Source: a bacterium (GTDB taxonomy: Bacteria; Planctomycetota; Planctomycetia; Planctomycetales; Planctomycetaceae). From it: a stretch of 64,000 nucleotides of DNA. The position numbers and the translations under genes were made by a program. Below the pieces are notes generated by a model. It saw nothing but the letters and a program-made list of their open reading frames with translations. It searched no databases and was not told where the DNA came from. The DNA lies in NCBI GenBank assembly GCA_016125225.1, contig WGME01000003.1, positions 1-64,000 on the forward strand, written 5' to 3'. Positions within the stretch are counted from its first letter, which is position 1; every line of letters starts with the position of its first letter. Below, one piece after another: positions 49,622-59,587 of this stretch.

Positions 49622-50002
49622 ATGGCTCAGTGCGAACAAGGTTATCTCTGCGATGTCTGCGGCGATGAAGTCGAGGACATCACCGACAGCGATCTCTATC
49701 TGCGGTATGTCACCGGCGAAGTCCCGGCCCGCGTGCTGATGACCGCCAAGGAGCGCCACCTCCGCTGCAATCCCACGCTGGCCCAGTTCATCGTCGATCC
49801 CGCATTCGATCCCGTCATCGTCGAAGGCCCCTTCGACAAGCGACAACTCGATCCCGCTGATGTTGCCCGACGGGAAGACCTCATCACTCGCGGCTGGCAG
49901 CGGCTACAGGAAGTGCGCGGATTAGGAATTCCGATCAGCGACTACCCATTAGAGGAAATCCGAAATTCGAAGCCCGATATCTCAATTTCAAAACCCGGTT
50001 GA
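49622..50002 (+). CDS. Cysteine-containing conserved-looking protein of unknown function
   Basis: A 126-residue protein with a ribosome-binding site (AAGGAA) just before the ATG at 49622. The start MAQCEQGYLCDVCGDEVEDITDSDLYLRYV has a C-x5-C-x2-C arrangement suggesting metal binding, and the rest is acidic and helical (DPADVARREDLITRGWQRL). I do not recognise the family. The last 14 codons or so (encoding SKPDISISKPG) lie in the dispersed AT-rich repeat R3, so the native C-terminus may have been replaced when that element inserted. Located just before the ECF sigma factor gene. Confidence 0.75.
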   Translation: MAQCEQGYLCDVCGDEVEDITDSDLYLRYVTGEVPARVLMTAKERHLRCNPTLAQFIVDPAFDPVIVEGPFDKRQLDPADVARREDLITRGWQRLQEVRGLGIPISDYPLEEIRNSKPDISISKPG

Positions 50003-50065
50003 CCTCGACGTCTGTTTCGAGCTTCGATCTTAGAATTTCCTTCGAATTTCGACATTCGGATTTCG
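49958..50065. repeat. Repeat R3, copy 2
   Basis: An AT-rich stretch with the same inverted motifs as 5676-5812; the reverse complement of 50031-50065 matches 5678-5709 with a few differences. It overlaps the end of the 49622 gene and stops just before the sigma factor start. Confidence 0.7.
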
Positions 50066-50071
50066 AGTTTT

Positions 50072-50731
50072 ATGCAAGGCATCTGGCCCAATACCGACGA
50101 AACGCAGCAACTCCTGGCCAACGCGGGGCAGGGGAATGGGGCCGCCGTGAATGATTTGCTGGAACGGCATCGGGAATCGCTCAGGAAAATGGTGCGGCTG
50201 CGGCTCGATCGTGCTGTGGCTCGCCGGGTCGATGCCAGCGACATTGTGCAGGACGTCTTGATCGAAGCCAACCAACGACTCAGCGATTACCTCGCCGATC
50301 CCCGCCTGCCGTTTCATCTCTGGCTGAGGCATCTCGCCAAAGACCGTATCATCGACATGCACCGCCAGCATCGCGGGGCGCAACGCCGCAGTCTGGACCG
50401 CGAACAACCGTTGGCCGCGGCTTCCAATGGCGATCACTCGGCCTTCGATCTCGCCCAGCAACTCGCGGCGAATGAACTGACTCCGGCCGCTGAAAACATC
50501 CGCAAGGAACTGGAAGAACGGTTCCTCGCCGCCGTCGATCAGCTCGAAGACGACGACCGGGATATCATTCTGATGCGGCACTATGAGCAGTTGGGCAACG
50601 CGGAAGCCGCAACCGCGTTGGGACTCTCCCCGGCCGCCGCCGGCATGCGTCACCTGCGGGCCTTACGGAAACTCCGCACAATCCTCGGCGAACGCCCCTC
50701 GCTCACCGGCAACGAATCGATCACCCCTTAG
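50072..50731 (+). CDS. ECF-type RNA polymerase sigma factor
   Basis: A 219-residue sigma-70-family protein of extracytoplasmic-function type. Region 2 covers about residues 25-100: KMVRLRLDRAVARRVDASDIVQDVLIEANQR and LWLRHLAKDRIIDMHRQHRG. Region 4 covers about 150-205: LEDDDRDIILMRHYEQLGNAEAATALGLSPAAAGMRHLRALRKL. No anti-sigma gene is adjacent; in planctomycetes such sigma factors are often linked to Ser/Thr kinases, as here. The stop codon TAG at 50729-50731 lies inside repeat R1; without the segment 50728-51416 the frame would read on four codons to a TGA at 51427-51429. Confidence 0.93.
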   Translation: MQGIWPNTDETQQLLANAGQGNGAAVNDLLERHRESLRKMVRLRLDRAVARRVDASDIVQDVLIEANQRLSDYLADPRLPFHLWLRHLAKDRIIDMHRQHRGAQRRSLDREQPLAAASNGDHSAFDLAQQLAANELTPAAENIRKELEERFLAAVDQLEDDDRDIILMRHYEQLGNAEAATALGLSPAAAGMRHLRALRKLRTILGERPSLTGNESITP

Positions 50732-50754
50732 CCGCGAGGTACCGCCGAGCGCTG
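50728..50754 (-). repeat. Repeat R1, left copy
   Basis: TTAGCCGCGAGG at the outer side and CGCCGAGCGCTG at the inner side. It contains the TAG that ends the sigma factor gene and is the inverted partner of 51390-51416. Confidence 0.8.
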
Positions 50755-50784
50755 ATTGCTCTCATCGCAAAGAAGGCCAGAAGC

Positions 50785-51357
50785 ATGAATCCGATTCCCA
50801 AAATCCTCTTTGAAATATGGAATGGAATTATTCGCGATGAGTACTCCAATATGCGAATCAATTCTGAAGGAAAACTTGAAGCGCTTTTATTCGCCCGGCT
50901 CGAATCGCGATTGTTGGATACCGGCATCGAAATTCTCGTGCAGCCCAAGATCCAGGTTGATGGTGATTCTTTCATACCAGACTTGATGCTCTGTCGAGAC
51001 CTAGAAGTGATCGCAGTGCTGGAAGCGAAATATCTTCCAAAGGTTGGGCCGAAAGCCAAACGCGATATTAAGAAACTCAAGAGCATCGCAACAACTCGCC
51101 CCGATCCTCTTTATGTACTTCAACGTTATCGTGGCTCTGCATCAACTCATGCATTGAAATTCCGCCTTTCCGACATGCCGATATTCGTCTGGCTCGGTTT
51201 GTACAACCCAGAAATGCGAAAACTGAAAGTGCCTTTTTTCAAGACTGATGACGTCGAATGCCTTTCTGGAGAGTTCGTTGAGCTTCATGCGATGACGAAG
51301 GAATCGGACGCCCCAGATATTAGGAAATGGATAAACGGCATCGAGCAAATCGATTGA
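50785..51357 (+). CDS. PD-(D/E)XK nuclease-like protein of unknown function
   Basis: A 190-residue protein. The core carries the pattern of a PD-(D/E)XK nuclease: after an N-terminal helical part and a strand (ILVQPKIQVDG), SFIPDLMLCRDLEVIAVLEAKYLP supplies the aspartate of PD and then E-x-K in EAKY, about 17 residues apart. A following lysine-rich helix (PKAKRDIKKLKS) could bind DNA. The fold resembles restriction or recombination nucleases, but activity is not shown and the exact family is not recognised. The gene is clearly AT-richer than the sigma factor and kinase genes around it and is bracketed by inverted R1 repeats, suggesting a foreign or mobile origin. Confidence 0.75.
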   Translation: MNPIPKILFEIWNGIIRDEYSNMRINSEGKLEALLFARLESRLLDTGIEILVQPKIQVDGDSFIPDLMLCRDLEVIAVLEAKYLPKVGPKAKRDIKKLKSIATTRPDPLYVLQRYRGSASTHALKFRLSDMPIFVWLGLYNPEMRKLKVPFFKTDDVECLSGEFVELHAMTKESDAPDIRKWINGIEQID

Positions 51358-51389
51358 TTGAATGCGATTGTGATCGACAGCTCATTGCC

Positions 51390-51416
51390 CAGCGCTCGGC
51401 GTTGCCTCGCGGCTAA
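51390..51416 (+). repeat. Repeat R1, right copy
   Basis: Begins CAGCGCTCGGCG and ends CCTCGCGGCTAA. It is the inverted partner of the left copy and stands 19 bp before the kinase start codon. Confidence 0.8.
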
Positions 51417-51435
51417 AGGAAACTGTTGAAAACCC

Positions 51436-53136
51436 ATGACATCACCCGCTGAAATCCCGACGCTCACGCCCGATGCTGATGCGCTTCTCATCGAGATCAT
51501 CGAAGATCTGCTCGCGCAGTCGCGTGATGGCCGCATGCCCGATCTCGATGGCGTGGTGCAGCAGTATCCGCAACTCGAACAGGAGATTCGTGAACTCTGG
51601 GCGACGATGATGATCGCCGAGGATTTCGCCAGTTTTCATGGCGATCTCGATGCACTGGCCGCTGGGGACGAACCGTCGGGCAGTGGTTCGTTGCAGGTGT
51701 TGCCGCGGGAATTCGCCGAGTTCACCCTGCTGGAGGAAATCGGCCGTGGCGGCATGGGGATTGTCTACAAGGCCCGGCAGCACAGTCCCGACCGTATCGT
51801 GGCCCTCAAGATGGTGTTGCGGGGTGACATTGCCACGGCGGTCGATCTGGCCCGCTTCCGGGCCGAGGCCGAAGCCGCCGCGAAAGTGCTGCATCCGCAT
51901 ATCGTGCCGGTGTATGAAGTCGGCGAGCACGATGGCCGCCCGTACTTCAGCATGAAGTTGATCGAGGGGACCACGCTGGCCCGACGGTTGGCCGAGGGAC
52001 CGTTGCCCTCGCGGCAAGCCGCCGAGATGCTGATCCCCGTCTGCCGGGCCATTGCCGATGCGCATCGTCGCGGCGTACTGCATCGTGACCTGAAGCCGTC
52101 GAACATTCTCATCGACCGGGAAGGCCGAACCTATGTCACCGACTTCGGCTTGGCGAAACGCATCACCACCGATAATCCCGAGGCATCGCTATCCGGCAGT
52201 CTCACGCAAAGCGGGGCGATTCTGGGCACGCCGGGGTACATGGCACCGGAACAGGCCGCCGGGCGACGCGGGGAAGTCAGTCCGATCACCGATGTCTATG
52301 CCCTCGGAGCGATCCTCTATGCGATGCTGACCGGGCGACCGCCGTTTCAGGCCGCGACGGCTCTCGATACCGTGCTGATGGTGCTCGAACAGGAACCATT
52401 GCCGCCGCGGATGCTGAACCCCAAGGCCGACAGTGATCTGGAAATGATCACGTTGAAATGCCTGCAGAAACCGGCCGATTTGCGGTACCGCGATGCCGAT
52501 GCTCTTGCCGATGATTTGCAGGCTTACCTCGCGAATGAGCCGATCGCGGCCCGCAGTTCGCACTTCTCGCAGATCATCACGCGGGCCTTCCGTGAAACGC
52601 ATCACGCTGCGATTCTGGAGAACTGGGGCCTGCTGTGGATGTGGCACAGTCTGGTGGTCTTCATTCTGTGCGTCATCACCAACATCATGTATGCCCAAGG
52701 GGTCGATCAGCGCTGGCCGTTCGTCGCGCTCTGGGGCTGCGGCGTCGGCACCTGGGCGGCGATCTTCTGGGAACTGCGGCGGCGTTCGGGGCCGATCACC
52801 TTCGTCGAACGGCAGATCGCCCATGTGTGGGCAGGCAGCACCATCGCCAGTACGTTGCTTTATGGTCTGGAATGGATGCTCGACCTGCCGGTGCTCACCT
52901 TGTCACCCGTGCTGGCCCTCATCGCCGGCAGCGTCTTCCTCGTGAAAGCGGGCATCCTTTCGGGCAAGTTCTACGTGCAGTCGGCCGTGCTGTATGCGAC
53001 CTCGTTCGCGATGGCACTCTTGCACCGCATCCCCGGCTGGGACTTCGGCCTGACACTCTTTGGCTTTGTCATGGGCCTGTGCTTCGCCTTGCCGGGCTGG
53101 AAGTACTGGAAACAACGGCAAGCCGCGGGCAATTGA
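51436..53136 (+). CDS. Transmembrane Ser/Thr protein kinase
   Basis: A 566-residue protein. Residues 1-85 form the helical lead-in common in planctomycete kinases (LDGVVQQYPQLEQEIRELW). The kinase domain (about 98-370) is complete: GRGGMGIVYKA (103 onwards), VALKMV lysine, HRDLKPSN (H216, D218), DFGLAKR (D236), GTPGYMAPEQ and DVYALGAILYAML. The C-terminal third has five to six hydrophobic helices (LVVFILCVITNIMYA, LALIAGSVFLVKAGI) and no extracellular sensor domain, so the input signal is unclear. It follows an ECF sigma factor gene, suggesting regulation of or by it. Confidence 0.93.
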   Translation: MTSPAEIPTLTPDADALLIEIIEDLLAQSRDGRMPDLDGVVQQYPQLEQEIRELWATMMIAEDFASFHGDLDALAAGDEPSGSGSLQVLPREFAEFTLLEEIGRGGMGIVYKARQHSPDRIVALKMVLRGDIATAVDLARFRAEAEAAAKVLHPHIVPVYEVGEHDGRPYFSMKLIEGTTLARRLAEGPLPSRQAAEMLIPVCRAIADAHRRGVLHRDLKPSNILIDREGRTYVTDFGLAKRITTDNPEASLSGSLTQSGAILGTPGYMAPEQAAGRRGEVSPITDVYALGAILYAMLTGRPPFQAATALDTVLMVLEQEPLPPRMLNPKADSDLEMITLKCLQKPADLRYRDADALADDLQAYLANEPIAARSSHFSQIITRAFRETHHAAILENWGLLWMWHSLVVFILCVITNIMYAQGVDQRWPFVALWGCGVGTWAAIFWELRRRSGPITFVERQIAHVWAGSTIASTLLYGLEWMLDLPVLTLSPVLALIAGSVFLVKAGILSGKFYVQSAVLYATSFAMALLHRIPGWDFGLTLFGFVMGLCFALPGWKYWKQRQAAGN

Positions 53137-59520: not shown

Positions 59521-59587
59521 TTAGCCGCGAGGCCCAGCCAAGCGTTGCGTGGTTTGTATGCAGCGCTCGGCTATGGCTCACAGCTAA
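59521..59587. repeat. Almost empty inverted pair of repeat R1
   Basis: A 67-bp unit: 59521-59547 (TTAGCCGCGAGG at its outer end) and 59561-59587 (CAGCGCTCGG at its inner end), with only 13 bp between. The arms are less perfect than at 50.7 kb. It exactly fills the space between the convergent SIS and PAP2 genes and may be a cassette without cargo or a hairpin terminator. Confidence 0.6.

Follow-up and report, generated by a model that had tools for sequence, protein, structure and literature searches.

In the sections of the literature cited here, RAYT genes that lie between inverted REPs or TIRs are described as REPtrons or TIRtrons (PMC3733652, PMC2817692), and an inverted REP doublet is termed a REPIN (PMC3116915). 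REPs and REPINs appear there as short sequences without genes of their own, which are moved by RAYTs (PMC3733652, PMC2817692, PMC3116915), and the copy number of a REP usually exceeds 100 per genome (PMC2817692). Another small ORF in an inverted-repeat stem loop is found in the 23S rRNA intervening sequence (IVS), which is patchily distributed and encodes an S23/four-helix protein; its structure and its excision by RNase III are described in the cited part of PMC4990558. The GxxExxY protein (PF13366, TIGR04256) belongs to the PD-(D/E)XK superfamily, and its small gene is often located within inverted repeats in the genomes we sampled. A literature search for units in which REPs or inverted repeats are combined with PD-(D/E)XK or four-helix genes, judged from its search results, returned no arrangement that we recognised as described. 

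Here we analyse a gene enclosed by inverted repeats in a 64,000-nucleotide stretch of planctomycete DNA (the window). An ORF of 219 amino acids (50072-50731, forward strand) encodes an ECF-type sigma factor, with Pfam matches to Sigma70_r4_2, Sigma70_ECF and Sigma70_r2. Its TAG stop (50729-50731) lies inside the left REP arm (50728-50754, forward strand), which consists of a TTAG tag and a stem-loop. The right arm (51390-51416, reverse strand) is inverted, equals the exact consensus of the repeat and differs from the left arm at 2 positions, giving 25/27 identity; when extended, the pair aligns over 30 nt (90%) and encloses 635 nt. The arms are 662 nt apart and the 635-nt loop contains one gene (50785-51357, forward strand), the ends of which are 30 and 32 nt away from the arms. 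It encodes a PD-(D/E)XK-type protein of 190 amino acids (E28, D66, E80, K82) and is poor in GC, at 45.5% (GC3 49%) versus 62% for the sigma factor and kinase genes and 59% for the window. The Ser/Thr protein kinase gene follows (566 amino acids, 51436-53136, forward strand; Pfam Pkinase, E 1.3e-45), and adjoins the sigma factor gene in the same-genus genome G001 and in other relatives. Joining 50727 to 51417, by eye, keeps the sigma frame open for four codons up to a TGA at 51427-51429, six bases 5' of the kinase ATG at 51436. The preliminary description had claimed 27-bp inverted repeats, a sigma stop supplied by the left repeat, this open join and an AT-rich gene with a PD-(D/E)XK pattern, and all four are borne out; the pattern reads P65 D66 ... 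E80-x-K82. No target-site duplication is seen at the window unit, and the complete arm-gene-arm arrangement occurs once in the window genome, with no second copy. Rfam gives no match across 50000-52000, and there is no rRNA at the locus, which falls between the sigma factor and kinase genes.

Both arms belong, in opposite orientations, to a dispersed repeat of the REP type, the units of which look like stem-loops with a TTAG tag. With up to 3 mismatches allowed, the genome contains 48 copies of the 27-mer, fewer than the >100 usual for REPs, and 0 of the reversed control sequence; a related 23-mer occurs 3 times in the window, where 0.01 would be expected. The other 46 copies of the 27-mer were examined in 40 genome stretches, with arms counted at up to 8 mismatches. 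These stretches contain 62 arms. Limiting the distance to 1.5 kb gives 16 inward pairs, of which 15 are spaced by 35-54 nt and the last by 187 nt; 30 arms have no close pair at the mismatch threshold used, which misses some partners with indels. Typical close pairs are short hairpins with loops of 8-27 nt, and two of them yield strong predicted hairpins; the folding energy of single arms is not unusual (z -0.95 and -0.61). Covariation is seen in the inner stem of the arm, with 15 cells changed on both sides and 0/500 shuffles as high (45 distinct arms; this is a shuffle count and not a probability). The 5' tag is TTAG, sometimes TGAG, and the REP consensus given in the cited part of PMC3733652 is GTAG. 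Among the copies examined in the genome-wide search, a gene lies in the loop only at the window pair, the rest being solo arms or close pairs too short to hold one. Since the repeat itself is genome-wide, the unusual feature of the window pair is its long, gene-bearing loop. The REP family is present in 8/170 genomes of the family, and no copies are found in the two other same-genus genomes, one of which is 64% complete. Elsewhere in the window, we observe a solo arm of this family with one extra base (1292-1319) and a worn pair (59521-59587).

We call the repeat a RAYT-type REP despite its TTAG tag because in G017, from another genus, a Y1_Tnp gene (26.1 bits, cut-off 23) sits between two pairs of it, with arms at 2-5 mismatches. 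The window unit thus resembles REPtrons and TIRtrons in that one gene lies between inverted copies of a dispersed tagged stem-loop, and in that the same REP brackets a Y1_Tnp gene in G017, but its cargo is a PD-(D/E)XK-type protein and not a RAYT. Like a REPIN, the repeat forms one hairpin from two inverted arms, is dispersed and has many singlets, whereas the window loop comprises 635 nt and a gene instead of 8-27 nt. The window genome contains four Y1_Tnp genes (L011, L012, L013, L014). With up to 9 mismatches allowed, none of them has a copy of the window REP within 1.5 kb; one copy with 10 mismatches is present, in L013. These genes adjoin inverted repeats of other families, with bracket scores (defined below) of 48, 68, 49 and 25. 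The search of the window genome revealed no RAYT bracketed by the window REP, so the unit probably cannot move at present unless a RAYT is provided. The Y1_Tnp search of REP-containing stretches covered 40 stretches from seven genomes, with part of the G155 copies. A second Y1_Tnp-like match in these stretches (G155, L289) is unbracketed, at a distance of ~1.4 kb from a REP.

Our preferred explanation, to which we give a fair probability, is that the window unit is a cargo-bearing REPIN in which the nuclease gene rides as a passenger and which a RAYT moves in trans; the movement is what we infer. The TTAG-tagged stem-loops would serve as ends for a REP-specific Y1 (HUH) transposase, which, supplied in trans, would cut and join these ends as single-stranded DNA. 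The DNA between the two arms, here the nuclease gene, would travel along. The gene in the window loop, together with similar small genes inside other inverted repeats of related bacteria (see below), suggests that repeats of this kind can carry genes around.

Searches of Pfam, NCBIfam, PHROGs and PADLOC with the enclosed protein gave no hits, and there is no significant sequence match in the PDB. Residues P65, D66, E80 and K82 are invariant across 11 sequences. Comparison of the predicted model (pLDDT 79.7, pTM 0.81) gives NucC (Z 8.3), OkrAI (8.2) and BstEII (7.9) as the best VIA structural rows, middling by the tool's own note; the best Foldseek matches have E 3.2e-3 (Bax1, McrBC), with nothing at E 0.001. 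The protein models as a restriction-endonuclease-like fold with the PD...ExK motif kept, a putative nuclease that matches no named family, and our guess is that it acts as a solitary restriction-like nuclease. GxxExxY proteins share the superfamily and the frequent location within inverted repeats (19/30 loci, see below), but their brackets are mostly other repeats and they have no detectable sequence relation to the window family. Common ancestry was rejected at the sequence level, with an hhalign probability of 0.35% and no Pfam or NCBIfam match to PF13366.

Relatives of the protein occur in 12/397 genomes of the class, the window genome included, and in 10/170 genomes of the family, a count that includes the window genome, a remnant in G001 and broken pieces in G155. 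Both searches find one gene copy per genome. In a 392-genome phylum sample, a shallower look with at most 8 candidates scored per genome, the window genome alone is positive. A contig scan with the window protein as the sole query confirmed no relative; with query A2 it yielded 8, in records titled proteobacteria and one Gemmatimonadetes, and distant relatives are present in four plasmid records. The passenger gene was probably acquired horizontally. A phage origin was rejected, one relative of the protein having no match among 50,697 phage records. In G001, a truncated relative (L125, 1462-1746) is located at another site and has no bracketing inverted repeat.

An insertion between the sigma factor and kinase genes had also been proposed, and the relatives support it as an addition. 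In G001, the orthologous genes (77% and 76% DNA identity) are adjacent with no gene between them. Spacing was scored in 17 relatives, with kinases recognised by motif alone and L056 and L064 left out. The kinase glycine-loop motif follows 289-384 nt past the sigma stop in 6 of them (G001, G004, G005, G025, G028, G032), leaving no room for a nuclease gene, and was not found after the sigma factor in the remaining 11. Owing to the gene-less G001 site and the motif spacing in the relatives, the most plausible interpretation is that the gene was added in the window lineage. At the position of the cassette, the G001 junction (L046, 2149-2220) carries a hairpin of 72 nt that belongs to another REP-like family. 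A second pair of this repeat is present within the 15 kb of G001 sequence examined; the 40 window-genome stretches contain no copy of it at up to 6 mismatches. A hairpin is present at the junction in both genomes, from different repeat families. It is possible that the junction is prone to acquiring hairpins and that a pre-existing REPIN took up the gene.

To score bracketing by inverted repeats, we aligned 300 nt upstream of each gene to the reverse complement of 300 nt downstream. Scores of at least 40 are obtained at 5/16 nuclease-family loci (window 45, G200 40, G184 106, G209 46, G137 85), compared to 0/211 control ORFs of 120-320 amino acids. The cut of 40 was set after the scores were known; at 30, the counts are 5/16 for the family, 1/211 for the controls, 26/30 for PF13366 and 17/24 for PF05635. 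The top control (score 36) is itself a GxxExxY (PD-(D/E)XK) gene. Because G137, G184 and G200 occupy the same site, the independent count is 3/14; with syntenic copies taken once and the GxxExxY control set aside, this stands against 0/210 (p 2e-4). The window-genome control is conservative, as its stretches were chosen around REPs. A check set of 16 sigma-factor loci scored 14-23. The test omitted L134 (contig edge), the plasmid relatives L150 and L151 and the G001 remnant, and took the borders of search matches as gene borders. A strong bracket is absent at 11/16 nuclease-family loci, from which it follows that the gene family is independent of the repeats.

Other gene families show the same placement. 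GxxExxY genes lie inside inverted repeats at 19/30 loci (L152-L181; those of the 56 PF13366 matches that came with loci), and many of these brackets consist of short similar units. Some of the loci are close copies or orthologs, so that they are not all independent. The GxxExxY genes of the window genome and G001 have flanking sequence in common and both are bracketed (36 and 68), indicating that brackets can be inherited. Genes of the four-helix bundle family PF05635 are within inverted repeats at 11/24 loci (L182-L211; 24 of 30 matches tested, with the partial or fragmentary L197, L201, L204, L205, L209 and L211 left out). The wider pattern, in which small PD-(D/E)XK and four-helix genes lie within inverted repeats, is strong in the sampled genomes, with copies that are partly related; two of the bracketing repeats were tested for dispersal.

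One of these repeats serves two families, bracketing a relative of the window protein in G184 and a GxxExxY gene in G137. In G184, the nuclease-family relative occupies the sole inward pair longer than 155 nt (597 nt) among 30 pairs, from an analysis of 100 of the 116 listed copies. The same repeat forms five inward pairs longer than 200 nt in G137 and G200, which belong to a third genus, and one of these pairs contains the GxxExxY gene. The long-loop pairs also contain a SUKH gene in G200 (L254, 866-1261), an L-rhamnose mutarotase gene in G137 (L298, 667-1056) and two G137 ORFs without a Pfam match (L253, 90 amino acids; L252, 245 amino acids, the end of which overlaps an arm). The repeat cargo therefore extends beyond nucleases.

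These observations bear on the more interpretive claims made earlier for the locus. A repeat-bounded unit is supported, as the arms come from a dispersed family and relatives of the protein are in some cases enclosed by other inverted repeats. The suggestion that the nuclease helps the unit to move finds no support: the window REP brackets a RAYT-type gene in G017, and another repeat holds non-nuclease genes. The same two facts weaken the idea that the REP family has the nuclease as its cognate mover. To speak of an undescribed system was too strong, given that REPtrons and TIRtrons are already known. If our reading is true, a REPIN with a non-transposase gene, together with the recurrently bracketed PD-(D/E)XK and four-helix genes, would mean that repeats of this kind act as vehicles of gene transfer, and protein families with no role known to us would gain a testable context.

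Alternatively, the bracket could be a coincidence: an acquired gene would have entered the operon in an ordinary way, and two independent REPs would have settled at the 3' ends of the sigma factor gene and of the new gene. That about half of the arms are unpaired and that most nuclease-family loci have no strong bracket would fit such a history. However, random placement predicts ~0.1 inward pairs at 200-1500 nt, the arms lie close to both ends of the gene, and the protein relatives and two other gene families are bracketed far above controls. We regard a coincidence as unlikely.

The cargo-bearing REPIN leaves the nuclease a passive role, and more active ones can be conceived. One is that at least two PD-(D/E)XK families, with no detectable sequence kinship, are recurrent hairpin-loop passengers and that the nuclease aids its own spread, for example as a minimal homing-like element on REPs; we consider this quite unlikely. 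More specifically, the PD-(D/E)XK protein could cut gene-less REPIN hairpins, with repair copying the gene into the loop, so that the arms would be the halves of its own target. The gene does occupy a loop of a repeat whose other copies are solo arms or short hairpins, and the G184 relative is likewise in the one long inward pair of its repeat. The REP and nuclease families also co-occur in 3/170 genomes (8 and 10 carriers; p 0.007, a value that ignores genome kinship). Nevertheless, each genome has a single gene copy despite many gene-less repeats, the long-loop pairs of G137 and G200 hold the other genes listed above, and the REP family is partnered by a RAYT in G017. Nuclease-family genes are also found apart from REPs, with no REP copy in the 12 kb around the gene in G139, and in G155 a broken gene with the nearest REP ~1.3 kb away. 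Target cutting of this kind appears very unlikely to us.

It is just as improbable that the unit is an IVS-like RNA element, whose arms would pair in the transcript and whose loop RNase III would separate or remove from the sigma-kinase message: RNA folding of the unit does predict that the arms pair (z -3.2, 20 shuffles), and the described IVS and the bracketed PF05635 genes from the same genome set offer precedents, but the window unit lies outside rRNA and its protein has another predicted fold, its arms belong to a dispersed REP that brackets a RAYT elsewhere, and RNA processing alone leaves the dispersal unexplained. No rRNA is present in the stretches of the 20 PF05635 loci searched, which include the 11 bracketed ones. 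At one PF05635 locus (L189), an RNase P RNA lies directly beside the gene.
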